Below are positions 7,480-33,611 of a stretch of 33,831 nt of DNA, one piece after another. The notes under the pieces were generated by a model. The model ran no database searches and had not been told where the DNA came from. It saw only the letters and a list, made by a program, of their open reading frames with translations. Position numbers and translations under genes: made by a program. How positions within the stretch are numbered: position 1 is the stretch's first letter; every line of letters begins with the position of its first letter. Origin of the DNA: an uncultured Prevotellaceae bacterium (GTDB taxonomy: Bacteria; Bacteroidota; Bacteroidia; Bacteroidales; Bacteroidaceae); assembly GCA_900319225.1 (NCBI GenBank), contig ONNV01000017.1, positions 1 to 33,831 on the forward strand, given 5' to 3'.

Positions 7480-9927
7480 ATGAATAAGAACTCCTTTGTT
7501 AGCCTTCTTTCCTTGTCTCTTGCGCTGCTTTTCCTGAACGGATGCAGCAAGAGTAATGTTGAATCAGTCATTTGGGATACTCCCATTGTGGAGAGTAATG
7601 CCCACAATGATTTCTGGGACCCCGAGCTGCGCCTGACGCGTGTTGAGCTTAACAGCCGCGAGACAGTGATTGACCTGACAGTATACGGATTCAGTGAAGA
7701 CGGTTACCTTTTCAGCTTCCAGCCGCGGCTCTGTCTTAAAGCTGGTGATGCGGTATACGCGCTGGACAGCATAGAGGGCATGAAACCCGGAGAATTGATC
7801 AAGACTCCTATAGATACTGAGGAGAAACATCTGGTATTCCATTTCAAGCCCATGCCGTTGGATACCAGACAGTTTGATTTCATAGAGGGTAACAGCCCCA
7901 GTGACTGGAACATCTACGGGATTCACAACTTTGATCCTAACTCTGATGTGCTGTTCAAGTCCCATTGGCGTGATGCCAGGAGCGGTGACTGGATTATCAG
8001 TTTCCACGATGATTTTGCCATAGCTGAGAACCAGGTGTGGAAGTATGCCTCAAAACCGGACGGCACCAGCGGTCAGGTAATCCTGGAGCGTGACGGAGAG
8101 CAGCTTGAAGTGGAGGTCAGTCCCATCAGGAACGGCTCCCGCAAGATAAAGGTGGGATCAAAGAGATATACCTGCGTACGTTTTGATACGGACAAGTTCC
8201 CCGATTATCCCCGTAAGGACCGCAGCCGTTTCAAGGACAACGGATTCCGTGATGGAGACAGCGTTACCATTAACGGTATCATACTGAACAGTGCCGTAAG
8301 TACCTGCAGCGTGTTGTATGATGATCTTTACGGAACGGACAGCTATCCCAAATTTGCAGGAACGGTGAATCCTGACGGCACATTCCATGTCAAGTTCCCG
8401 GTCAGGAACAGCCAGTCCATACGTCTTCAGGTTGAAGGCGGCTATTTTAGCCGCGGATGCACTTTTGACATACCTGTTGAACCGGCCGAGGAGTATTTCA
8501 TCTATTGTGACCGCAGCCGTGGCCAGAAGATGGTTATGGGCCCCAATGCACGTGTAGTGAACGAGTATCTCTCATACGGCCACTATATCAGGTTTGAGTC
8601 CCTGATAGATATGGCACCGGACAAGACTGTTGATGCAGAGTCCTATCTGGAATACCTGGAGATGAGGAGATCACAGGGGGAGAGGATACTGGACAGCATC
8701 GCAGCCCTTCATCCCACACTGTCGCGTAAGTTCAGGGTTCTTGACAAGGTGTTCCTTAAATGGGAACTGGCGGCTGACCTGGGACAATCCAGGTTCCGTC
8801 TGGACAACCGTGGCGGAAACCCTGTGCTGCCCGCAAATCTTTCAGAATTCGCACATCGGGAGATATGGAACTCGAATCCCATCTGTGTACCTCTGCCTCT
8901 GTTCAATTTATCCCATTTCATGAGGGATTATCTACAGTCATGTGAGGGTGAATGGGGTGGTTCAGACGACCTTGATATGATGGGTATTCTTAAGCTGGGC
9001 AGAGAACGCGGTAAGATCAGTATGACCGATGCCGATCTGGATGCCGTAGCATCATATATGGATGCAGTTACCCGGATAGCTACTGAACTTGATTCCATAC
9101 GCAGGGCCGATAACGTTCCTCTGGACAAACTCAATGACCTGAGCCTGAGTCTGACGGAGAAGCATAAGGATGTCATTGAGAAGGGCAGTGAAGTAATAAA
9201 ACGGTATGAGAATGAATTCAAGGCTTTCTCTGATGAACTGAGCGATGAGCAGAAGATAGAGGATTTCAAGACCAGGGTTGCCATAATAGATTCCTTGGGT
9301 GGAGATAAACTTATGAGGCAGATTGCCATCACCAAGAGCTGTATGCAGATAATGGACTGGGGCAAGCATTCACTTGCGGCTCCCATCAAGGAGATATTTG
9401 ACCGTGAGGTAAAGATTGAGGCTGCCGTAAATGTTGTCAATGCAATGCATGACAAATATCTGGCGCTGGAGAACGTTGATATCGCCGCACTGGGAAGTAT
9501 CCGTGACGCAAAGAGTCTGGCGGGCATGAGTGACGGAGAGAAGATCCTTGCTGAGATAGTCAGGCCGTTTGAGGGAAAGATTGTCTGGATAGATGTATGG
9601 GGTTCATGGTGTCATCCTTGCCTGGAGAACCTTTCACATGCAGCCGAGGTGAGGAAAGCACTTGAGGACTATGATATAGTATATCTCTATCTTGCCAACA
9701 ATACTACCGATGAAGCAATGAAGAGCATCATCGCCGAGTACGGCCTCTCGGGCGATAACATAGTGCACTACAATCTGCCCGCCATCCAGCAGAATGCCGT
9801 AGAGAACTACCTTAACGTAAGTGCATATCCGTCATACAGACTAATAAACCGCCACGGAGCCCTCCTTGACGTCCAAGCCAGTCCCCACGACCTTATGGCA
9901 CTAAAAAAGGTATTGGATAAACTATAA
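7480..9927 (+). CDS. TlpA-like thioredoxin-fold lipoprotein, large
   Basis: This 815-residue protein starts with a lipoprotein signal (lipobox FLNGC, Cys22), so it should be anchored in the outer or inner membrane facing the periplasm. The C-terminal domain (about 685-815) is thioredoxin-like, with KIVWIDVWGSWCHPC; the redox pair is Cys711/Cys714, followed by a typical TlpA/ResA fold. A helical region rich in charged residues covers about 500-680. The middle (about 260-350) has a beta-rich DUF4369-like segment (VTINGIILNS to VPAEEYFIYCDRS-like). About 250 N-terminal residues are not recognised. Bacteroidetes have many such proteins; roles in disulfide reduction are inferred. It is the last gene of the repressor/protease operon and probably its regulated output. 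A terminator follows at 10007-10044. Confidence 0.85.
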   Translation: MNKNSFVSLLSLSLALLFLNGCSKSNVESVIWDTPIVESNAHNDFWDPELRLTRVELNSRETVIDLTVYGFSEDGYLFSFQPRLCLKAGDAVYALDSIEGMKPGELIKTPIDTEEKHLVFHFKPMPLDTRQFDFIEGNSPSDWNIYGIHNFDPNSDVLFKSHWRDARSGDWIISFHDDFAIAENQVWKYASKPDGTSGQVILERDGEQLEVEVSPIRNGSRKIKVGSKRYTCVRFDTDKFPDYPRKDRSRFKDNGFRDGDSVTINGIILNSAVSTCSVLYDDLYGTDSYPKFAGTVNPDGTFHVKFPVRNSQSIRLQVEGGYFSRGCTFDIPVEPAEEYFIYCDRSRGQKMVMGPNARVVNEYLSYGHYIRFESLIDMAPDKTVDAESYLEYLEMRRSQGERILDSIAALHPTLSRKFRVLDKVFLKWELAADLGQSRFRLDNRGGNPVLPANLSEFAHREIWNSNPICVPLPLFNLSHFMRDYLQSCEGEWGGSDDLDMMGILKLGRERGKISMTDADLDAVASYMDAVTRIATELDSIRRADNVPLDKLNDLSLSLTEKHKDVIEKGSEVIKRYENEFKAFSDELSDEQKIEDFKTRVAIIDSLGGDKLMRQIAITKSCMQIMDWGKHSLAAPIKEIFDREVKIEAAVNVVNAMHDKYLALENVDIAALGSIRDAKSLAGMSDGEKILAEIVRPFEGKIVWIDVWGSWCHPCLENLSHAAEVRKALEDYDIVYLYLANNTTDEAMKSIIAEYGLSGDNIVHYNLPAIQQNAVENYLNVSAYPSYRLINRHGALLDVQASPHDLMALKKVLDKL

Positions 9928-9944
9928 TGCATTGCCGCCCCCCC

Positions 9945-9987
9945 AAGCGTCTTTTTAGGCCCTGAAAGGGCCATAAAAGTCAAAAAA
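9945..9987. repeat. Composite intergenic repeat, short copy C
   Basis: This holds the AGGCCC/GGGCC hairpin (9951-9979) with TAAAAGTC and an A tract, matching the module at 4815-4850 and the inverted one at 20868-20905. Only this part of the repeat is present. It sits between convergent genes. Confidence 0.75.
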
Positions 9988-10006
9988 TCCCGAGCTGCGA
10001 AGCAGC
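9982..10006 (-). terminator. Terminator for the minus-strand oxidoreductase gene
   Basis: On the minus strand a GCTGC-TTC-GCAGC hairpin is followed by TCGGGA and six T. It lies 67 bp beyond the stop codon of the gene ending at 10073. Confidence 0.55.
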
Positions 10007-10055
10007 GAGAGCCCGCTGTTGTACAAACACAACAACGGGCTCTCAACCTTTTATT
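10007..10055 (+). terminator. Terminator of the blaI-M56-tlpA operon
   Basis: GAGAGCCCGCTGTTGT and ACAACAACGGGCTCTC form a 16-bp stem with one mismatch and a 6-nt loop (10007-10044), followed by a T-rich tract. Confidence 0.65.
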
Positions 10056-10072
10056 TTCCTACCTGTGTAACC

Positions 10073-12424
10073 TTATTTTGAAAGGGATTCATGCATGCTG
10101 GCGGCAGCTTTGCGGCCGTCACCCATGGCCAGGATTACGGTAGCACCTCCGCGTACGATGTCACCACCGGCAAAGATTGTGGGTATTGATGACTGCATGC
10201 TCTCGTTTACGGCGATGGTGTTCTTGCGGCCCAACTCCAGACCCTCGATTGACTTGGGTACGATGGGGTTGGGTGATACACCTACTGCAACGATTACCAT
10301 ATCCACATCAACTGTGATTGTCTCACCTGTGGGAACCGGGCTGCGACGACCGCTGGCATCGGGCTCACCAAGCTCCATCTTCTCAAGTACAGCCTGCTTT
10401 ACGCGGCCGTTCTCATCGCCGATGTAGCGGATGGGGTTGTGCAGGGTCATGAACTCTACACCCTCCTCCTTGGCGTGCTTAACCTCCTCAAGACGGGCGG
10501 GCATCTCCTCCTCACTGCGGCGGTAAACGATCATGGCGCGGTCGGCACCCAGACGCAGGGCTGTACGGACAGAGTCCATAGCGGTGTTACCGCCACCTAC
10601 AATCATTACGTTCTTACCGAATATGATAGGAGTATCGGCCTCCTTGCTGGATGCATCCATCAGGTTGACACGGGTCAGGTACTCGTTTGATGACATTATA
10701 TTGATAAGGTTCTCACCCTCAATGCCCATGAAGTTGGGCAGACCGGCACCTGAGCCTACGAATATGCCCTTGTAATCCTCAGCCTCAAGCTCCTTGACGG
10801 TGATGGTCTTACCTACGATGCAGTCCTTAACGAACTTTACACCCATCTTCTCAAGGTTCTCAATCTCAACGTCAACGATCTTGTTGGGCAGACGGAACTC
10901 AGGAATACCGTACTTGAGCACACCGCCAATCTCATGCAGGGCCTCGAATACGGTTACATCGTAACCAAGCTTAGCCATATCACCGGCGAATGAGAGGCCT
11001 GAAGGACCTGAACCGATGACTGCGATCTTCTTGCCGTTTGATGCTGCAACCTCAGGTACTGAGATGTTGCCGCTCTCGCGCTCGTAATCAGCAGCAAAGC
11101 GCTCCAGATAACCGATGGCAACCGGCTTCTTACCCATCTTAAGATGGATACACTTGCTCTCGCACTGCTTCTCCTGCGGGCATACACGGCCGCAGACAGC
11201 AGGCAGGGCGCTGGTCTTCTTGAGCACCTTGGCAGCAGCCAGATAGTTGCCGCGCTCAATATTCTTGATGAATGAAGGAATCTCAATGTTTACGGGGCAG
11301 CCCTCCATGCAAGAGGGGTTGGCGCAGTCAAGGCAGCGCTTGGCTTCCAGCAGAGCCTGCTCCTCGGTGAGGCCCTGGTTAACCTCCTCCTTACGGCTGT
11401 GACGACGGTAGTCAGGTGCCAGCTCGTTCATCACACAGCGCTCGATGGCGGTGCGGTCCTTGGGTTTCATTGTGGCACGCAGGTCAGCTCTCCACTGTGC
11501 GTTGCGGTCAGTCAGAACCTCGATGGGCTCAACCTCAGCCTTAGCCTTGGAGCCACCGCAGCAGCAAGCAGCCTTATCGGCAGCGGGAGCGGCGCTCTGG
11601 GTTGCATACTCCTCAAGTTTCTTCATCTCCTCGCGCTCAACCTCCTTGAATGCGCCCATACGCTTCATCATACCGTCCCAGTCAACTTCATGACCGTCAA
11701 ACTCAGGACCGTCTACGCATACGAACTTGGTCTTGCCGCCTACGCTTACACGGCAGGCACCGCACATACCGGTACCGTCAACCATAATGGTATTGAGTGA
11801 TACATCGGTAGAGATGTTATATTTCTGTGTGAGCAGGCAGCAGAACTTCATCATGATGGCAGGGCCGATGGCGAAGCACTTGTCAACCTTCTCTCTCTGG
11901 ATTACCTGTTCCATACCGACAGTTACGACACCCTTGTTACCGTATGAACCGTCATCGGTCATGATGATGGTCTCATCGGCATACTTGCGTACCTCATCCT
12001 CAAGAATGATGAGCTCCTTGGTACGACCTGCAAGTACGGCGATTACCTTGTTGCCGGCCTCCTTAAGAGCCTTGATGATGGGGAGCATGGGAGCTGTACC
12101 TACACCGCCGCCGGCGCAGAGTACAGTGCCGAACTTTTCAATGTGGGTAGCCTGGCCCAGAGGTCCTACAACGTCGGTGATGTAGTCACCCTCATTGAGC
12201 AGGCAGAGCTTGTTTGTTGAGAGACCGATGCGCTGTACGACCAGTGTGATGGTGCCGCGCTTTACATCGGAATCAGCAATGGTAAGCGGAACACGCTCAC
12301 CTTTCTCTCCTATACGGATGATTACAAAGTGACCGGCACGGCGTGACCTTGCAATAAGCGGTGCCTCTACTTCAAACTTGAAAACGTTCTCTGAAAACTG
12401 TTGTTTGGATACAATCCTGTTCAT
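10073..12424 (-). CDS. Bifunctional FNR-like NAD(P)-binding subunit / GltD-like NADPH oxidoreductase
   Basis: This 783-residue fusion is well known in Bacteroidetes, where it is annotated as dihydroorotate dehydrogenase B NAD-binding subunit / NADPH-dependent glutamate synthase; it resembles the two subunits of NfnAB joined. Its N-terminal third is a ferredoxin-reductase-like FAD/NAD domain ending in a Cys-rich 2Fe-2S site (MCGACRVSVGG with a later FVCVDG). A linker with ACCCGG follows. The GltD-like part has 4Fe-4S cysteines (CLDCANPSCMEGCPVN, GRVCPQEKQCESKC), an FAD-binding GSGPSGLSFAG and an NADP-binding GGGNTAMDSVRTA. The physiological electron partner is uncertain. The start is the ATG at 12424, because an upstream ATG at 12475 precedes the TAACTTTG promoter box. 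Confidence 0.92.
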   Translation of the reverse strand: MNRIVSKQQFSENVFKFEVEAPLIARSRRAGHFVIIRIGEKGERVPLTIADSDVKRGTITLVVQRIGLSTNKLCLLNEGDYITDVVGPLGQATHIEKFGTVLCAGGGVGTAPMLPIIKALKEAGNKVIAVLAGRTKELIILEDEVRKYADETIIMTDDGSYGNKGVVTVGMEQVIQREKVDKCFAIGPAIMMKFCCLLTQKYNISTDVSLNTIMVDGTGMCGACRVSVGGKTKFVCVDGPEFDGHEVDWDGMMKRMGAFKEVEREEMKKLEEYATQSAAPAADKAACCCGGSKAKAEVEPIEVLTDRNAQWRADLRATMKPKDRTAIERCVMNELAPDYRRHSRKEEVNQGLTEEQALLEAKRCLDCANPSCMEGCPVNIEIPSFIKNIERGNYLAAAKVLKKTSALPAVCGRVCPQEKQCESKCIHLKMGKKPVAIGYLERFAADYERESGNISVPEVAASNGKKIAVIGSGPSGLSFAGDMAKLGYDVTVFEALHEIGGVLKYGIPEFRLPNKIVDVEIENLEKMGVKFVKDCIVGKTITVKELEAEDYKGIFVGSGAGLPNFMGIEGENLINIMSSNEYLTRVNLMDASSKEADTPIIFGKNVMIVGGGNTAMDSVRTALRLGADRAMIVYRRSEEEMPARLEEVKHAKEEGVEFMTLHNPIRYIGDENGRVKQAVLEKMELGEPDASGRRSPVPTGETITVDVDMVIVAVGVSPNPIVPKSIEGLELGRKNTIAVNESMQSSIPTIFAGGDIVRGGATVILAMGDGRKAAASMHESLSK

Positions 12425-25769: not shown

Positions 25770-25840
25770 AGTGACCCATTAGGGACAGTCCCCCTGTGTC
25801 ATCTTGCATGTCACAGGGGGACTGTCCCTAATGGGTCATT
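25770..25840. repeat. TGACCC-ended perfect inverted repeat
   Basis: Arms 25772-25798 and 25812-25838 are a perfect 27-bp inverted repeat (ends TGACCCATTAGGGAC, inner CCCCTGTG). One mismatch, three more pairs and a 5-nt loop extend the stem. The nuclease gene stop codon is the TGA of its right end. It could also act as a transcription terminator for the nuclease gene, although there is no strong T tract. Confidence 0.9.
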
Positions 25841-26621
25841 GGGCTAGCCAGATGAGCTGGTTGAACGTGGATTCTACGCGGGATTCAACATCATCGGACA
25901 GGGCGGGAAAGAAATCCAGCCCTGTTCTGGATTCTACCTCATCGACTGTTACTGCATAGGTCGAGAGGGGCTTATGGCCTGCTTTGTTGTCCATAATGAA
26001 GCCGATGGACTCATATCCGTTGGGGGTCAGCACAAGCATCACTTTGTAGAAAGCATCGGGTACAACGACCTTATTGGGGCCGATGCTCCCGTACTTGTTG
26101 TCCGTAATAATCGGACCGCAGGTTACGTAGATGCTGCCATACTTGTTGGCGTATTCGCGAACCAGTTCCTCTAGCGCTTTCCAGTCACCGCTGTTCAGGT
26201 TGTGGTTCTGAGGGCAGATATTTGTAAAGTAGAAACTCTCGCGCATCATCTGTTCTGTCAGTTTCATATCGGCAGCAGGTGCCATGTGGCCGCGGTCCCA
26301 ACCGGAGTTGCGGTAGTCATTGTCATCGGCCTGAAGACCGTTGAAATTGGGGTCGGTGCGAAAATGGTTTGAACGCGGATTCGTGCCCGATACCTCCTCA
26401 TCGGTCAACTCGTAGGCCACCCACTCCGGGATGCGGTAATTCTCATTCAAGACCACCTCATATCCTTCATAGACCAGATGCTTTTTGTAAGATGCCTCGG
26501 TATAGGCCGGAATTTCAAGTTTGTTAATACTTTGTCTGCCGGTTTGCAACGGCGTCCTGCACCACCACAACACCAGGCAAAGCACAACAAAAACCAGCAG
26601 CTTTAACAGTCCTTTTTTCAT
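25836..26621 (-). CDS. DNA/RNA non-specific endonuclease (NUC1 family), membrane-anchored or exported
   Basis: The 261-residue protein has an N-terminal hydrophobic segment (MKKGLLKLLVFVVLCLVLWW), so it is exported or anchored. Its core shows DRGHMAPAAD, the catalytic His motif of the beta-beta-alpha metal nucleases, and NICPQNHNLNSGDWKALE with the Asn that binds the metal. It cleaves nucleic acid without sequence specificity, probably in the periplasm for nutrition. The start is ATG 26621, with a TATCTTTG box four bases upstream. It is divergent from the zinc-finger gene. Its stop codon lies in the inverted repeat. Confidence 0.92.
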   Translation of the reverse strand: MKKGLLKLLVFVVLCLVLWWCRTPLQTGRQSINKLEIPAYTEASYKKHLVYEGYEVVLNENYRIPEWVAYELTDEEVSGTNPRSNHFRTDPNFNGLQADDNDYRNSGWDRGHMAPAADMKLTEQMMRESFYFTNICPQNHNLNSGDWKALEELVREYANKYGSIYVTCGPIITDNKYGSIGPNKVVVPDAFYKVMLVLTPNGYESIGFIMDNKAGHKPLSTYAVTVDEVESRTGLDFFPALSDDVESRVESTFNQLIWLAQ

Positions 26622-26625
26622 ATCA

Positions 26626-26633
26626 CAAAGATA
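26626..26633 (-). promoter_or_regulatory. -7 box of the nuclease gene
   Basis: TATCTTTG (TAnnTTTG) ends four bases before the ATG at 26621, suggesting a leaderless or very short-leader message. A TTTG about 24 bp upstream could be a wide -33 box. Confidence 0.5.
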
Positions 26634-26648
26634 ATGAAATATAATCAC

Positions 26649-26656
26649 TACATTTG
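26649..26656 (+). promoter_or_regulatory. -7 box of the zinc-finger gene
   Basis: TACATTTG matches TAnnTTTG and lies 19 bp before the ATG at 26676. It excludes the earlier in-frame ATG at 26634. It faces away from the nuclease promoter, 15 bp from it. Confidence 0.5.
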
Positions 26657-26675
26657 TCAAAATGACACTGTAACT

Positions 26676-27605
26676 ATGTCCTTTTTCAAATGCAAAAGCA
26701 ATGACCGCTTTCCGGCAATGGTTGAAAGACAGAACTGGAAGGGGATTCTGAACGCGCTGGGTGAGCGTATGGGAAATGCACACGGTGTGGGTAATGACGC
26801 TGTTATCACTCAAGTCAAGGAGTATGATGCCCTAAGGGTTGAGGCCGAATTCCACAGCAGCGCCATTTCATATGACAACCATAAGGAGAACGGTCAGCGC
26901 CTGACTGCAAATAATGATTATCAGGTCTTTAGCGACATCCCTGATCATGAGGTTCTGCGCAACATCCAGATCATACTTGGCGGTACGCTTGCAACCCATA
27001 CATGCATCCATTGCGGAGGTTCCGGAAATATGACATGCCCCATGTGTAACGGCCGCGGTCACAGCATGAAGGACGGACATGTCAACCACTGTTCCAGATG
27101 CGGAGGTTCAGGCCACGTATCGTGCAACCATTGCGGCGGAACAGGCAGATACCAGACATTCAAGACAGTCACAGTATCAGACAAGACGGATTTTTATTCT
27201 TTCTGTCCTACCGATGCATTGTCCGTAATGATCAGGAAACAGAACATTAAGACCGATGTACTGCATGACGGCACCGTTCAGAATGAAGAGCTTTACTCCA
27301 CGATAGGCGAAAGGCTGGGGCAGGAAGTAAAGGAAAACTTCCGGGAGGATTTTGAAAAGATGCATGATGCCGTAAAAGACAGACCGGACAATCGTCTTGA
27401 AGATATAACCGCACGTGCCGAGTGCTCACCCCTTATTGAGATTCAATACAAATACCGGGACAAAGACTATACGCTGTTCATATCAAGACAATCCCCCACA
27501 GTATACTGCTACAAAAGGTTCCCGGGCAGATTCCTGCAGAGAATCCGCGAGTTGTTCAGTTCCGATAAGAGTAAGGACAGCTACGGCAGCAAGTATCAGA
27601 AGTGA
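26676..27605 (+). CDS. Stand-alone DnaJ-type zinc-finger protein of unknown function
   Basis: This 309-residue protein has four CxxCxGxG-like motifs (CIHCGGSG 110-117, CPMCNGRG 121-128, CSRCGGSG 139-146, CNHCGGTG 150-157), as in the cysteine-rich domain of DnaJ, which binds two Zn ions. No J domain (HPD) or DnaJ C-terminal domain is visible. There is no signal peptide. The N-terminal 105 and C-terminal 150 residues are not recognised. A role in protein folding or redox is only suggested by the zinc finger. It is divergent from the nuclease gene, with promoters back to back. Its stop TGA is the start of a GTGACCCATTA remnant of the inverted-repeat family. A four-base gap separates it from the convergent TonB-receptor gene. 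Confidence 0.75.
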   Translation: MSFFKCKSNDRFPAMVERQNWKGILNALGERMGNAHGVGNDAVITQVKEYDALRVEAEFHSSAISYDNHKENGQRLTANNDYQVFSDIPDHEVLRNIQIILGGTLATHTCIHCGGSGNMTCPMCNGRGHSMKDGHVNHCSRCGGSGHVSCNHCGGTGRYQTFKTVTVSDKTDFYSFCPTDALSVMIRKQNIKTDVLHDGTVQNEELYSTIGERLGQEVKENFREDFEKMHDAVKDRPDNRLEDITARAECSPLIEIQYKYRDKDYTLFISRQSPTVYCYKRFPGRFLQRIRELFSSDKSKDSYGSKYQK

Positions 27606-27612
27606 CCCATTA
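27602..27612. repeat. Remnant end of the TGACCC inverted-repeat family
   Basis: GTGACCCATTA is identical to 25771-25781, the left end of the perfect inverted repeat. It lies in the four-base gap between convergent genes and overlaps both stop codons. Confidence 0.5.
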
Positions 27613-30000
27613 ATGTGAGGCTATGATGCGCAGATTCAGCATGCGGCCGGTCAGGTAGTTGGGTACGGCATACTGGTTGTTCCGGATGTCGGTGATCCAG
27701 TAGTAGGAGTTGACGTTGTTTATGCCCAGCAGGTTAAGGCAGTCCGCACCAAGCCAGATATCCTTGAAAATTCCTGACTTTCCATATACGTGGGGGTGCT
27801 TGTTGTAATCAAATATCTTGTATGAAAGGCCTATGTCCACACGCTTGTATGCGGGGGCGCGGAACACCCGGCTCTCGCGGCCGCTGTGGGTGGGTCCGAA
27901 TGGCAGACCGTCGGCCATGGAGCAGCGCAGTGACATTTTCCAGTTCTCGCGGTGCGGGAAATAGTCTGTAAAGTAAAGTGACAGGTTATAGAGCTGGTCG
28001 GTGGGGCGGGGCAGCCACTTGCCGCCTATGTTCTCACGGGTGCTCATGAGAGAGAACGTGAGCCATGATGCGGTACCGGGTACAAACTCGCCGTACAGTT
28101 TCATGTCAATACCTGCGGCATATCCGTAGGCGCAGTTCTGGCCATAGTAAACTATCCTTACATTATCCAGATTGTACGGGATCAGGTCATCCAACTTTTT
28201 GTAGTAAATCTCAGTAGTGAACTTGAACGGACGTCCATAGACACGGAAATCATAATCTCCGCCCAGTACAAGCTGTATGGAACGCTGTGAGCGTATATCC
28301 TTGCTAAGCTGTACCTGATATATTCCGCCGGTGTTTACCGTGTCTTTTATCTCCTTATAGAAAGGTGTCTGGTAGTAGACGCCTGCCTGAAAACGGAATG
28401 TCAGGTCATCATTGAATGCTGGCGTGAAACCTACCATGATACGCGGGCTCACGTTAAACTGGTTGTTCCAGCTCCACCATGAAGCACGTACTCCGGCATT
28501 AAGTGTAAAGAGTCCCGCTCCGGTGGTAAACCGGTAGGTATCCTGGATATAGGCCGATGCCTTGTTGTTTGATACGCCATGATCGGACTTGAGTGAGTAT
28601 ATCATCTCCATGGGCCCGGTCTGGGTGTAGGGCAGGGTGTAACCGGCAGAGTCACGCATCTCCCACTCACGCATATGGTCGCTTACAGTCTCATGCCTGA
28701 ACTCAAGGCCCCAGTTAATGCTGCCTGCGTGCTCTGTGGCGTGGGTGGCCTTGAATGATGCGGTATAGACGTTTGATTTAAGGCGGTTACGGGCATGCTG
28801 CATGAATGACCCTACGGCCAGACTGTTGCCGTTACCGCTCTCATCTAGCCAGTACTGGCTCAGTATGTCAAACGTCTCGGTCTCGCGGCTGTTGAATGCC
28901 GACAGGTTGAAACGGTATATGGAGTTCTCCTCAATGCGTTTTATGTCAAGGGCACCGAACAGGGTGTTGAAACGGTCTTTCTCCCAGCCCTCATAGTAAA
29001 CCTTGAAACTCAGCGGGTTCTCCATGGTTCCAAATGACGTGTTACGGTCAGAGGGGCGGAAATTGTAGTTGTTTACCGCTGCGTTGCCTATCAGGCCAAT
29101 CTCCCATTTGGTGGTCGGAGTCCAGCACAGATAGGTCTGGTAATCGGTGAATGCCGGGTCATACTCACCTTTTGTCTGCATGGTGCCCAGCAGGTAGCGG
29201 GTGGTCTTGTATCTGGCACTGGCCGACAAACTTATCTTGTCATTACCCATGCCAACGTATGCGCTGCCTCCAAGCAGGCTTGCGGTGAGCACAGCCTCCA
29301 GTTTGCGCGGCTTGCGGTAGGTGATATCCAGGACCGATGACATCTTGTCGCCGTATGCCACACTGAATCCGCCGGTTGAGAAACTGATGCTTTCCACCAT
29401 ATCGGGGTTGATAAAGCTCAGGCCCTCCTGCTGTCCGGCACGTACCAGTAGCGGACGCAGTATCTCGGTGCCGTTCACATAGACGCTGTTTTCATCAAAG
29501 TTTCCGCCGCGGACATTGTACTGGCTGCTCAGCTCATTGTGTGTGCTCACACCCGCCTGTGTGGATATGATGGACTCTACGGAGCCTCCGCTGGCATCGG
29601 CCGTAAAACGTAAGCCCTGGGCGCTTATGTCCTGCATTCCGTCACTGCGACGGCGGGTTGCGGTTACATCCACGTTGTCAAGCGTATAGTTCGTGGTGGG
29701 CAGCAGCATATCCAGACGTACTGTATCCTGTGGGCCGATAAGCGTGCGGCGCCTGGTCTCATGCCCAATCATGCGGAATACCAGCGTGAGTGTATCGGAC
29801 GTGGAATTGACCGATAAAGAGTACTCACCCTTTAGGTTCGTAATGGCCGACCGCAGAGTATGCTCCTCATTCACTGTAGCCAGCTCCACCGGATCGCCTC
29901 CCTCATCATACACCCGTCCGTGCACATACACGCGCCGTGCCTGCACGGAAATTGTTAGGCACAACAGAATGACTGTGAGTATAATCCAATGCTTTGTCAA
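27610..30000 (-). CDS. TonB-dependent outer-membrane receptor with carboxypeptidase-like domain
   Basis: This 796-residue protein starts with a signal peptide (about 1-21, end VQA). A carboxypeptidase-regulatory-like beta domain follows (about 22-110, VYVHGRVYDEGGDPVELATV). The plug is at about 125-230 (LSSQYNVRGGNFDENSVYVNGTE, then FSTGGFSVAYGDKMSSVLDI), and a 22-strand barrel runs to the end. It imports an unknown ligand using TonB energy. No SusD partner follows, so it is not clearly a SusC-type polysaccharide system. The promoter was not clear; it is divergent from the transglutaminase-like pair with 267 bp between, which contains no gene. Confidence 0.9.
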   Translation of the reverse strand: MTKHWIILTVILLCLTISVQARRVYVHGRVYDEGGDPVELATVNEEHTLRSAITNLKGEYSLSVNSTSDTLTLVFRMIGHETRRRTLIGPQDTVRLDMLLPTTNYTLDNVDVTATRRRSDGMQDISAQGLRFTADASGGSVESIISTQAGVSTHNELSSQYNVRGGNFDENSVYVNGTEILRPLLVRAGQQEGLSFINPDMVESISFSTGGFSVAYGDKMSSVLDITYRKPRKLEAVLTASLLGGSAYVGMGNDKISLSASARYKTTRYLLGTMQTKGEYDPAFTDYQTYLCWTPTTKWEIGLIGNAAVNNYNFRPSDRNTSFGTMENPLSFKVYYEGWEKDRFNTLFGALDIKRIEENSIYRFNLSAFNSRETETFDILSQYWLDESGNGNSLAVGSFMQHARNRLKSNVYTASFKATHATEHAGSINWGLEFRHETVSDHMREWEMRDSAGYTLPYTQTGPMEMIYSLKSDHGVSNNKASAYIQDTYRFTTGAGLFTLNAGVRASWWSWNNQFNVSPRIMVGFTPAFNDDLTFRFQAGVYYQTPFYKEIKDTVNTGGIYQVQLSKDIRSQRSIQLVLGGDYDFRVYGRPFKFTTEIYYKKLDDLIPYNLDNVRIVYYGQNCAYGYAAGIDMKLYGEFVPGTASWLTFSLMSTRENIGGKWLPRPTDQLYNLSLYFTDYFPHRENWKMSLRCSMADGLPFGPTHSGRESRVFRAPAYKRVDIGLSYKIFDYNKHPHVYGKSGIFKDIWLGADCLNLLGINNVNSYYWITDIRNNQYAVPNYLTGRMLNLRIIASH

Positions 30001-30145: not shown

Positions 30146-30267
30146 CCAAAAATCAGTAAAACAACATGCCGTTACTTGTTTGTTAAGTGATTTGTGAATT
30201 CAGCTTAAACTTGTTTGTAACGGAATTGAGCTTACTGATATTTACGATAGCCCTAATAAACCAATTA

Positions 30268-31617
30268 ATGAAATTGTTATTGCCAGCTATACATGTGGCT
30301 GTACTCTCTTTAGTCTGTTCCTGCACATCCGGCTCAGCCCTGGAGCGTGCTCTGGAATCCGCCGGTGCCAACAGAGCGGAACTTGAATCCGTCCTGGCTC
30401 ACTACCAAACTATAGACCCAAATCCCCAGAAACTCCAAGCTGCAGAGTTCCTAATAGAGAACATGCCAGCCCATTACTCATACGCAGGCAAAGAAATCAA
30501 CCAGTACTACGAATACGCATCCCATATACTATCAGACCAAACACTGACTCCAGAACAGCAGCGTGACAGCCTGCTAGCCATAACCGACCTCAAGTATCGT
30601 GACCTACCCAATCATACCATCCCCGACGCCCAGATAATCAAGGCCGATTACCTTATAGACAACATAGACAAATCCTACAACCAGTGGACCACCTGCCCAT
30701 GGGCTAGCCAAGTCACCTATGAACAGTATCTGGAGTGGATGCTACCCTACAAAGCCGTCGAACTGCAGGAACTTGACCATTGGCGCGACACCCTGATAAC
30801 CCATTTCGGTAAAGGCCTGGACAAGCCCATAAAGAATGATGTGGAATACAACACTACCATGGGCGTTGCCGATATGATACGCAATGATACATATAACGGA
30901 CTACATCGCTACGGACTCTACACCCGTGCCGGACTCCCGCTACTCTCCGCCCACCTGCAGGCACACCAGACCTATGGAGACATACCAGACTACGCACTCA
31001 CCGCCGTCCTAGCCATGCGCAGCGCCGGCATACCCGCAGTACTGGATGAAACCCCCGTAGGCTCCCGTGGCACCGCCGCCACCAAATGGTACGTGATAAT
31101 CTCAGACCGTGGCGAGCAACTCACCTCCGAGTGGGACCTGGCCACCACGATAGGCGGCAGCTTCTTTCCATATGAACGAGGCCCCAAAGTCTACCGCAAC
31201 ACATACGCCATCAACAAAGAGCGTGAACAGTACAGACATAAAGCCAAGTACCAGTATCCATTTGAACTTGGAAAGAAAGACGTCACCTCACAGTACTTCC
31301 TAACCAGTAACCTAAAAATCCCCATAGACAAAAACACCGTAAAGAAACTCAAAGACAAATACCTATATATAGCCTCCGCCGTACGCAGTAAAGACAACCC
31401 CTGGCAAATAGTAGATATTGGAACACTCAGCCATGGCAAAGCCCGTTTCCATGACATGGGCCGAGAAGTACTCTATACAGTCATGGGCTATGACGGCACC
31501 GGACTCATACAAATAACAGCCCCATTTATCCTCCATAAAGATGAAAGCATAGAATACGTGAATGCAGACAGTATCAATTCACCCAGCCTTGACAGATGGA
31601 AAAACAACGCCTTATGA
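30268..31617 (+). CDS. Transglutaminase-like lipoprotein lacking the catalytic Cys and His (probable pseudoenzyme)
   Basis: The 449-residue protein has a lipoprotein-type signal (LSLVCSC, Cys17 or Cys19). It is clearly homologous to the next gene product: NMPAHYSY, TCPWASQVTYEQYLEWMLPYK against RPWSQHLSFEEFRDWILPYK, then KYQYPFELGKKDVTSQY. In the core the Cys of the partner (Cys249) is replaced by Ile239, and the His (His282) by Thr272. The fold may remain as a binding or regulatory subunit. The C-terminal discoidin-like part of the partner is missing. The ATG at 30268 is used. Its codons are unusually rich in C- and A-ending forms such as CTA, ATA and CCA. It ends in an ATGA overlap with the next gene. 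The transglutaminase-like assignment is by motif only. Confidence 0.72.
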   Translation: MKLLLPAIHVAVLSLVCSCTSGSALERALESAGANRAELESVLAHYQTIDPNPQKLQAAEFLIENMPAHYSYAGKEINQYYEYASHILSDQTLTPEQQRDSLLAITDLKYRDLPNHTIPDAQIIKADYLIDNIDKSYNQWTTCPWASQVTYEQYLEWMLPYKAVELQELDHWRDTLITHFGKGLDKPIKNDVEYNTTMGVADMIRNDTYNGLHRYGLYTRAGLPLLSAHLQAHQTYGDIPDYALTAVLAMRSAGIPAVLDETPVGSRGTAATKWYVIISDRGEQLTSEWDLATTIGGSFFPYERGPKVYRNTYAINKEREQYRHKAKYQYPFELGKKDVTSQYFLTSNLKIPIDKNTVKKLKDKYLYIASAVRSKDNPWQIVDIGTLSHGKARFHDMGREVLYTVMGYDGTGLIQITAPFILHKDESIEYVNADSINSPSLDRWKNNAL

Positions 31618-33611
31618 AAAACAGACACAAAAAACATACAATAGTATTGTTTGGCATATTATCACTCATGGTGATAACCGGCTGTAGCAAGGAAGACATA
31701 TACCTTCATTACGCCCTTAAAGCAGCCGGAGAAAACAAGACCGAACTCAAGGCTGTACTCAGACACTACCGCACCGAAGATCCTGACAAGGAAAAACTTC
31801 GTGCCGCAAAGTATCTTATCGCCAATATGCCGGCTCACTATTCATATCGTGACACTGCAGCCATAAACAGTTACTACCGTAAGGCACTTGAGATACTTGG
31901 CACCGGTCCCAGCCCAGACTGGCAGCGGGATACCTTAAACCAGATAAGCGGCTATTATTATTGGGGACTTTCCGAAGATACCATTTCAGATGTAAAAGTT
32001 ATTAAAGCTGATTACCTGATATACAACATAGACCACGCATTTAATCAGTGGCGTACCAGACCATGGTCACAACACCTTAGTTTTGAAGAATTCCGCGATT
32101 GGATTCTGCCCTATAAGGTAACTGAACTGCAGAGTTTCGATTTATGGCGTGATATTCTGTCTTCATATTATAGTGACAGCCTGAGTAAAGTTCAGCCTAC
32201 TGATTATGAACGTAACACCATATACGGCGCAATTGAGATAGCCCGTAATGAGATACAGTCCAATCAGTACTCCATAGGACACCGTGTGATATGGGATCCC
32301 AGCGACATAATTCCATTACGTAGTGCCGATACCTGGAAACGCATGACATATGGCAGTTGCATGGAGTATGTAATTATGGGAACTGCCGTATTCCGCAGTC
32401 TTGCAATGCCTGCAGCCATTGATATGGTTCCAATTTGGGGAAGGAACAGTGCCGGACACTGCTGGTACACTTTTCTGGATGACCGTGGCCGTGAGCAAGT
32501 TACTATCAATTCCCTGATAATGCCGGCTGGTCAGCAGTTCTATCCATACGAGCGTATACCCAAGGTATGGCGCAGTTCATATACCATTAACCGTGATTTG
32601 TATGAATATCGTAATCGTGCTAAGTATGTATATCCATTTGATCTTTGCCGTGTGGATGTCACGGACCGTTATAATTTGACATCGGACCTGGAGATTGAAA
32701 CGAAACCGGAAACTGTAAAATGTCTTGTAGATAAAAAGTATGTCTACATAGCAATGGCGGTCAATTCATTCGGCCCGGAATGGTTTGTGCTTGATTATGG
32801 CAAGCTCAAAAAAGGAAAGGCATGTTTTAATAAAATGGGTCGTAATATGCTGTACATAGTACTTGGATTTGACGGTGAAGATCTTATACCCATAAGCCAT
32901 CCTTTTATTCTGCATAAGGATGGAAAGATTGAATATGTAGGTGATGAGGATACACAGCAGACCGTAAGCCGTGACCTGCGCCGTAAGTACTATGAGTCAT
33001 ATAATGTGGCGGATATGCGCCGCAGGATTCTGGGTGGCAAGTTACAGTGTTCGGATAGCCCTGACTTTAAGGATGCGGTTACCCTCTACACAATTGAAAC
33101 CACTGAGATACCTTATCTGATAGAGTTGAATGCCGAAAGGTCATACCGTTACTGGCGTTACTTAGCTCCAAACGGTTCGTGGGGCAGCATATCGGAACTG
33201 TCATTCCATGACGCTGATGGCAACAAATTGTTTGGCATAGGAATCGCCAACCCCGAAGCCGGGCAGGATGCCATTGACCGCGCCTATGACGGCAACCTGC
33301 TTTCAAACTTTGAGATTAATCAGCCTGACGGCAACTGGGTGGGCATGGATATGGGCAGACCAATAAATGTTACTTATGCAAGCGTATCACCACGTAGTGA
33401 TGACAATGATATATGCCCTGGTGACGAATATGAACTTCTGTACTATGACGGTGAAGACTGGAACTCGTATGGTTATCAGGTGGGTAAAGGCAATTCATTA
33501 CACTATGATGTAATTCCGCTCAATACGCTGTTGTGGATGCGTGACTATACCCGCGGCAACAATGAGCGCCCCTTCATAATAAGGGAGAATGGTGCAATTG
33601 AATGGTGGTAA
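31614..33611 (+). CDS. Transglutaminase-like lipoprotein with C-terminal discoidin-like domain
   Basis: This 665-residue lipoprotein (lipobox VITGC) is homologous to the preceding protein over about 440 residues. It keeps a transglutaminase-like pair, Cys249 in YGSCMEYV and His282 in SAGHCWYTF; the third residue is not assigned. Residues about 470-665 look like a discoidin/F5-8-type galactose-binding domain (YRYWRYLAPNGSWGSISEL, NWVGMDMGRPINVTYASVS). It should sit on the outer membrane or periplasm and act on, or bind, a glycan or peptide. The start is the ATG at 31614, overlapping the previous stop as ATGA. No terminator with a T tract was found downstream. Confidence 0.75.
   Translation: MKNRHKKHTIVLFGILSLMVITGCSKEDIYLHYALKAAGENKTELKAVLRHYRTEDPDKEKLRAAKYLIANMPAHYSYRDTAAINSYYRKALEILGTGPSPDWQRDTLNQISGYYYWGLSEDTISDVKVIKADYLIYNIDHAFNQWRTRPWSQHLSFEEFRDWILPYKVTELQSFDLWRDILSSYYSDSLSKVQPTDYERNTIYGAIEIARNEIQSNQYSIGHRVIWDPSDIIPLRSADTWKRMTYGSCMEYVIMGTAVFRSLAMPAAIDMVPIWGRNSAGHCWYTFLDDRGREQVTINSLIMPAGQQFYPYERIPKVWRSSYTINRDLYEYRNRAKYVYPFDLCRVDVTDRYNLTSDLEIETKPETVKCLVDKKYVYIAMAVNSFGPEWFVLDYGKLKKGKACFNKMGRNMLYIVLGFDGEDLIPISHPFILHKDGKIEYVGDEDTQQTVSRDLRRKYYESYNVADMRRRILGGKLQCSDSPDFKDAVTLYTIETTEIPYLIELNAERSYRYWRYLAPNGSWGSISELSFHDADGNKLFGIGIANPEAGQDAIDRAYDGNLLSNFEINQPDGNWVGMDMGRPINVTYASVSPRSDDNDICPGDEYELLYYDGEDWNSYGYQVGKGNSLHYDVIPLNTLLWMRDYTRGNNERPFIIRENGAIEWW

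Follow-up and report, generated by a model that had tools for sequence, protein, structure and literature searches.

The window analysed here is the whole of contig ONNV01000017.1 (33,831 nt, forward strand) from assembly GCA_900319225.1, an uncultured Prevotellaceae bacterium placed in the Bacteroidaceae, and it ends in two overlapping genes for homologous lipoproteins, referred to below as A (first gene, 30268-31617) and B (second gene, 31614-33611). A prediction made earlier from the sequence alone (the original prediction) had described them as a dead/active pair of transglutaminase-like lipoproteins overlapping by ATGA. The overlap lies at 31614-31617, and the two proteins are 44% identical across 429 residues. 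Both open with lipobox-like signals (VCSC in A, ITGC in B), and alternative in-frame starts occur further upstream (GTG at 30187 for A, ATG at 31596 for B). A stops at the point where B runs on into a discoidin/CBM62-like region, so that A lacks this end, as had been noted. The features of the pair are as follows.

30268..31617, + strand: protein A, 449-residue lipoprotein, very probable transglutaminase-like pseudoenzyme, without discoidin-like end and without surface-export signal (CTSGSA)
30982..30984, + strand: Ile239 codon of A, catalytic Cys column, aligning with Cys249 of B
31081..31083, + strand: Thr272 codon of A, catalytic His column, aligning with His282 of B
31614..31617, + strand: ATGA overlap, stop TGA of A and start ATG of B
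31614..33611, + strand: protein B, 665-residue lipoprotein with transglutaminase-like domain, surface-export signal CSKED and discoidin/CBM62-like end
32358..32360, + strand: Cys249 codon of B, from the column alignment
32457..32459, + strand: His282 codon of B, from the column alignment
32508..32513, + strand: Asn299-Ser300 codons of B, at the positions of Trp-Asp in A and unpaired relatives
33018..33608, + strand: discoidin/CBM62-like region of B (residues 469-665), matching CBM62 (2yb7)

The ATGA overlap recurs at 20 of 27 tandem A-B junctions, the window's counted in; one of 28 rows was dropped from this count, as it compared two pieces of one broken A.

Reciprocal loss of catalytic residues in A and B

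Catalytic columns were counted in 29 A, 31 B and 18 unpaired aligned proteins, each 380 residues or longer and with the window's pair among them. The pairing of Ile239 and Thr272 of A with Cys249 and His282 of B holds up in this alignment and extends to the relatives. The Cys column contains Cys in every B (31/31) and unpaired protein (18/18), and 28 Ile and one Ala in A. The His column is equally fixed in B (31/31) and the unpaired proteins (18/18), and in A it contains 24 Thr, 2 Ala, 1 Val, 1 Ser and a single His. The original prediction had named retention of Cys and His by orthologues of A as the observation that would overturn it; Cys was found in 0/29 and His in 1/29. Loss of the same residues in 29/29 (Cys) and 28/29 (His) A proteins means that the difference between A and B is not a matter of chance.

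The usual transglutaminase-like triad is Cys-His-Asp/Glu, with non-canonical versions described in PMC4866520. A third acidic residue after the His is missing from most B proteins. At the column 18 positions beyond the His (H+18), Asp is present in all A (29/29) and unpaired (18/18) proteins, and B contains Ser in 27/31 and Asp in 4/31, with Asn just before this position in 29/31. The window's A retains Glu288-Trp289-Asp290, and this Glu-Trp-Asp element is invariant in 29/29 A proteins. H+18 would be the triad position; the profile alignment with canonical transglutaminase-domain proteins covers the Cys and His and ends before the third residue. A has thus lost residues that B retained, and has retained a residue that most B lost.

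The pair of genome G027 (C1 near 382429) looks intermediate, with His still present in A and Asp still present in B, which suggests that A lost its Cys before its His and that the change of Asp in B came later. Four B proteins in all have retained Asp while their A partner lacks Cys, an arrangement that argues against the two having to share one active site.

Evolutionary maintenance of protein A

In six locus comparisons, the ratio of nonsynonymous to synonymous substitution rates (dN/dS) ranged from 0.08 to 0.17 in A and from 0.07 to 0.11 in B; half of these comparisons were among the same three loci, and dS exceeded 1 in two A comparisons and one B comparison. Mean modal residue frequency in A was 0.86 around Ile239 and 0.77 around Thr272, compared with 0.74 for the whole protein. 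A is present in 24/24 genomes having a fetched B-clade protein, and B in 24/25 genomes having A, where the one without B has a contig that breaks off within A; three fragmentary or broken A records in this count (G007, G026 and G031) were added by hand. Three genomes retain both genes although they are not linked there. Distances among A proteins correlated with those among B proteins across 26 tandem loci (Mantel r 0.56, a value reached in none of 2000 permutations), a correlation that shared ancestry alone would yield in part.

A combines the disappearance of catalytic residues with continued selection, as expected of a pseudoenzyme, and is very probably a maintained one. The dead partner of the original prediction is therefore a conserved, selected paralogue of B without catalytic Cys and His, on the evidence of dN/dS, clade and columns, and the survey of relatives bore out conservation of the pair: the 29 A proteins form one clade, and A is present in every genome with a fetched B. 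Since evolution has kept A beside B in the relatives, A probably has a job of its own.

Membership of the transglutaminase-like superfamily

The Transglut_core model (PF01841) scored 13.2 bits on the window's B, below its cut-off of 23, and gave no match on the window's A at E<=1. Two unpaired relatives exceed the cut-off (L053, 24.0 bits; L055, 24.6 bits), and 16/28 aligned members match at E<=0.1. Profile-profile comparison gave a probability of 95.0 with the unpaired proteins, 94.3 with B and only 28.5 with A, with the domain located by a simple pattern in 17/30 loci, of which L131 is probably a wrong pick. The Cys and His columns of B and the unpaired proteins align in the profile comparison with ordinary transglutaminase-domain proteins. 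Pfam and NCBIfam searches of A returned nothing near a cut-off (for example PRK09997 at 21 bits against 465, taken as chance), searches of PDB sequences for the catalytic domain gave good matches for the C-terminal part alone, and a PF01841 profile search of the window's genome returned none at E<=0.001.

Structure prediction gave a model of B with a mean predicted local distance difference test score (pLDDT) of 84.7 and a predicted template modelling score (pTM) of 0.78 from a 28-sequence alignment, and a model of A with pLDDT 78.9 and pTM 0.80 from a 23-sequence alignment. Foldseek searches of solved structures placed factor XIII/TG2 chains in the top 16 ranks for B (best E 1.7e-4; template modelling score, TM, about 0.1). 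For A, the leading matches were 3kd4 (a putative protease of Parabacteroides), TG2, protein 4.2, Rad4 and 3isr (a putative cysteine protease of Cytophaga), with E of 0.02 and higher, none at or below 0.001, and unrelated folds from rank 14; 3isr reached a probability of up to 0.98 over 124 columns. We take 3kd4, Rad4 and 3isr to have transglutaminase-like folds. The matches are of the right kind for transglutaminases, and their scores are weak.

Together, the relatives above the Pfam cut-off, the profile-profile probabilities and the fold matches support membership of A and B in the transglutaminase-like superfamily through a chain of homology, in line with the original assignment. B shares the Cys and His columns of the PF01841 superfamily; the pair differs from it in the Ser at the third position of most B proteins, in a long helical N-terminal part and in the absence of both Cys and His from A. 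Vasohibins are transglutaminase-like cysteine proteases for which a Cys-His-Ser triad has been proposed (PMC4866520), and most B proteins likewise combine Cys and His with Ser as the third residue. B would in this respect resemble Cys-His-Ser enzymes such as vasohibins more than a canonical transglutaminase; vasohibins are animal proteins, and the likeness concerns the triad residues.

Export signals and the C-terminal end of B

In Bacteroidetes, lipoproteins reach the cell surface through acidic residues beside the lipid-bearing Cys. In Capnocytophaga the signal is C-X-K-(D/E)2-X (PMC5080379), and in B. thetaiotaomicron the surface-export signal is CS(D/E)2 (PMC6222051). Asp or Glu at position +4 after the lipid Cys was found in 27/28 B, 2/27 A and 2/16 unpaired proteins (Fisher 3e-12 and 1.5e-8, which are not true probabilities, the sequences being related). 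Rows without a recognised lipobox were dropped from this count (3/31 B, 2/29 A and 2/18 unpaired). The window's B carries such a signal (CSKED) and the window's A does not (CTSGSA). With the signal present on B and rare on A, B is predicted to be at the surface and A to face the periplasm, so that the two proteins may sit on different faces of the outer membrane. The cell-surface location first proposed for both lipoproteins thus stands, by the export-signal rule, for B and not for A.

Residues 469-533 of B match the second half of CBM62 of Clostridium thermocellum (2yb7) and residues 552-595 its first half, with E 6e-11 in the sequence search and 1.2e-18 in the profile search. The Pfam F5/8 type C model scored 20.5 bits on B, below its cut-off of 28.2, and one relative is above it at 29.1 bits. 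Both halves of CBM62 find a match in the end of B, which differs from CBM62 in that the second half precedes the first. This inverted order looks like a circular permutation, or like one and a half domains.

Phylogeny and distribution of the family

An alignment of 84 proteins of at least 380 residues was assembled from the fetched loci, shorter rows being excluded, and 83 of these entered the tree, L080 (a partial unpaired protein) being left out. The tree contains three groups: A (n=29, support 94/98), paired-type B (n=31, 100/99) and unpaired long proteins (n=17, 96/84). The A clade was present in 94% of bootstrap trees, and none of 500 label shuffles was equally clustered. Six distant outgroup rows fall outside the three groups, their placement unsure on account of long branches. 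We infer that A and B derive from one duplication; the branching among the three groups is not resolved by the tree. Six places lie outside all clade and co-occurrence counts (G002:C48, G007:C87, G007:C95, G035:C6, G035:C98 and G049:C62).

A relative of A (E<=0.001) was found in 40/101 genomes, the window's own and its relatives, and A itself in 25/37 genomes of the window's genus (its own and 36 relatives). Across 399 genomes of the bacterial family, 32 match A at E<=1e-60. On the criteria of frame length and identity, and not on a tree, A-type matches among these 399 are confined to the window's genus, the matches in two other genera being long or partial frames. Named relatives are uncultured Bacteroidaceae or Bacteroidales, and several of their records mention horse, sheep, water buffalo or red deer. 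No relative of the pair was found in the viral contigs searched.

The source genome (2.53 Mb, 84.7% complete) contains three A-B pairs, on contigs C1 (the window), C13 and C15. Two A/B-like N-terminal fragments lie at contig ends in the same genome (C3:1-394 and C15:1-418; L061 and L062), and the window contig stops 220 bases past B; given these fragments and the B at a contig end, the multi-copy A/B family may break the assembly. In G026:C85 (L096:8951-10316) the A gene is split in two frames, and in G023:C5 (L064:6887-7900) a frame of 338 residues begins like A and ends like B; each may be a real change or an assembly error.

Gene neighbourhood

A gene for a TonB-dependent receptor lies divergent from A at 27610-30000, and its plug domain was confirmed. 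The divergent receptor of the original prediction is thus present in the window, where alone it is a neighbour of the pair: none of the neighbours at the other 60 loci compared is related to it. As a general partner of the family it was rejected, being absent beside the other copies. Further upstream, 25836-26813 (− strand) encodes a DNA/RNA non-specific endonuclease (PF01223, 194 bits) and overlaps an opposite-strand frame at 26634-27605 (+ strand) that has a weak DnaJ CXXCXGXG match, below the cut-off.

Neighbouring genes in the relatives were greedy picks of open reading frames (ORFs) of at least 90 residues, from which small genes can escape, and labels of neighbour clusters rest on one scanned representative per cluster, for part of the clusters. 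An O-antigen-ligase protein (c1; Wzy_C over the cut-off, TPR below it) accounts for 36 genes in 35/61 neighbourhoods. It is the commonest neighbour of paired and unpaired proteins alike (for example L059:14880-16496) and may be what these clusters are really centred on; in the window's genome it has only five matches, two of them adjoining A-B pairs. Signal peptidase I (c2) occurs 24 times, and a BT3442-like lipoprotein (c3), scoring far under the cut-off of that model, is found at 19 loci. Small upstream proteins include c14 (DUF3244) and c11 (no family). Among the 6-bladed propellers, c13 and c22 exceed the DUF5128 cut-off, c19 is at most below it, and c28 has the label only; the four propeller representatives scanned comprise two over the cut-off, one under it and one with no match. 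The neighbours of about 190 residues that were scanned had no Pfam match, and the labels resistance-nodulation-division (RND), outer-membrane-factor and membrane-fusion were each confirmed on a single scanned protein. Downstream of 21 pairs with at least 6 kb of sequence, c1 was found at 12, signal peptidase I at 10 and propeller-labelled genes at 8 (4 of them c13/c22). Unpaired proteins often precede two other lipoproteins (c6 and c8) and c1.

Small proteins with an NVEAL motif are encoded 3′ of B in relatives. Within 2.5 kb after B, 9/32 ORFs of 80-260 residues were NVEAL-type, against 5/375 elsewhere in the same loci, and near unpaired proteins such ORFs occurred at 1/15 loci; the count used 25/31 B and 15/18 unpaired loci, and the motif pattern was picked after some of the proteins had been viewed. 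Of ten neighbours scanned with the NVEALA model PF14055, one was over the cut-off (27.7 against 27 bits), four matched weakly (E<0.03) and five, comprising three NVEALA candidates and two non-candidates, had no match. A limited literature search returned no paper for the term NVEALA.

A similar gene company is found on a plasmid of Phocaeicola vulgatus, pPvulCL10_1, where the annotation lists NVEALA, 6-bladed propeller, redoxin (the term of that annotation), lepB, O-antigen ligase, a 189-residue protein and a transglutaminase domain-containing protein consecutively. This Phocaeicola/Bacteroides protein is 25-29% identical to A and B and has, by eye, Glu at H+18. It differs in its upstream partner, a 189-residue hypothetical protein (L149, 8929-9498) that corresponds to the N-terminal helical part of the family alone and is not a full pseudoenzyme. 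Together with the transglutaminase-domain protein at 9543-11435 it makes up, in an isolate from the human gut, another tandem in which one partner is much shortened. A Bacteroides finegoldii plasmid encodes a distant discoidin/transglutaminase-like relative (L151:8992-12165) near TlpA, O-antigen ligase and, two genes on, a "bacteriocin fulvocin C-related protein".

Proposed function and alternative explanations

On the explanation that we put at about even chances, A is a scaffolding or regulatory pseudoenzyme for B, a surface cysteine hydrolase or transamidase, perhaps in the maturation of a secreted peptide. The ancestor would have been a single lipoprotein with a Cys-His-Asp active site, duplicated in this genus of uncultured Bacteroidaceae. 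A would then have lost the nucleophile and afterwards the base, retaining the fold and the acidic element without the chemistry, and B would have retained Cys and His and gained the surface signal, with Ser replacing Asp as the third residue in most lineages. In B, Ser or Asn could orient the His, as in the vasohibin Cys-His-Ser arrangement, and the discoidin/CBM62-like end could bind sugar while the enzyme is displayed at the surface. A would be a partner of B without catalysis of its own, serving as scaffold, chaperone or stabiliser or presenting the substrate, coupled to B in translation where the genes adjoin and possibly located on the periplasmic side of the outer membrane. The substrate would be the secreted small Cys-containing NVEALA-type protein of the clusters that house part of the family. 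That B is catalytic is probable from its conserved residues, and it is likewise rather probable that A acts together with B; a peptide substrate is a more tentative proposal. The active enzyme of the original prediction is not assured: Cys and His are present in every B, and Ser stands at the place of the triad-type Asp in most of them.

Several observations weigh against this explanation. The A and B trees are not mirror images, some loci being near kin for A and distant for B, and the unpaired relatives manage without A. The change from Asp to Ser in most B proteins could mean that B is impaired too. RND efflux genes lie downstream in 7/21 of the pairs with at least 6 kb of sequence. NVEAL-type ORFs with a hydrophobic start occur within 2.5 kb after B in only 9/25 B loci, and anywhere in the fetched stretch in 13/25. 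PF14055 had no match at E<=0.001 in the window's genome, and no NVEALA-type gene is in view beside the window's pair, where the contig ends 220 bases after B.

A secreted cluster peptide is plausibly the best candidate substrate, and nutrient glycopeptides are its main rival. In a nutrient-scavenging role, B would be a surface glycopeptide amidase or peptidase of glycan or glycoprotein utilisation, A a binding-only partner, and the TonB receptor would serve the window's pair. The CBM62/F5-8-like end and surface-export signal of B fit such a role, as do the receptor in the window and, on two Phocaeicola plasmids, opposite-strand genes for an alpha-L-fucosidase, a SusD protein and a TonB-dependent receptor located past the transglutaminase gene. 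The receptor is, however, peculiar to the window among the loci compared, and no glycosidase or SusC/SusD family appeared in the recurring-neighbour representatives scanned, which covered part of the clusters; we consider this role unlikely. Slightly less likely still is that both proteins are non-catalytic, with most B proteins, their triad Asp gone, also serving as binding proteins and the fold being used for peptide or glycan binding. The prevalence of Ser in B would agree with this, and inactive transglutaminases exist, one of which, human protein 4.2 (7uzs), ranks within the ten best fold matches of A; yet full conservation of Cys and His in B would be unexpected without chemistry, and a Cys-His-Ser triad has been proposed within the same superfamily, for vasohibins (PMC4866520).

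Two further explanations have little probability. It is improbable that the pair is a split catalytic unit, its active site divided between the duplicates so that full activity on secreted NVEALA-type peptides requires both the Glu-Trp-Asp of A and the Cys-His of B, brought together perhaps across the outer membrane or around it: four B proteins retain their own Asp though the A partner is without Cys, and the difference in export signals would part A from B. The least credible is that A is a decaying duplicate heading for loss. Its C-terminal part is missing, and the two-piece A in the G026 draft and the shortened 338-residue frame in G023 (C5) could be read as decay, but A and B have similarly low dN/dS, the substitutions in A are fixed, its Glu-Trp-Asp is invariant and it is present in all genomes with a fetched B. 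Decay of A was rejected on dN/dS and co-occurrence.

Among known systems, A has a eukaryotic parallel in red-cell protein (band) 4.2, an inactive transglutaminase. Protein 4.2 has a transglutaminase fold without activity, kept for structure (7uzs against A, TM 0.27/0.20); it differs from A in being eukaryotic, and its gene is not coupled to that of an active paralogue. The occurrence of an inactive structural member is described in PMC13073648.

Dead/live paralogue pairs of pseudoenzyme and enzyme are already known in general. What is new here is a bacterial transglutaminase-like pair that is coupled by a gene overlap and whose partners have lost catalytic residues reciprocally and differ in export signal; a limited literature search found no description of such a bacterial dead/live lipoprotein pair. 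Co-occurrence, reciprocal residue loss and the change in export signal make the division of labour between A and B directly testable. Through the link of some family members to NVEALA-type clusters, these small-protein clusters acquire a candidate enzyme for testing, also among the relatives on plasmids of human-gut Phocaeicola.

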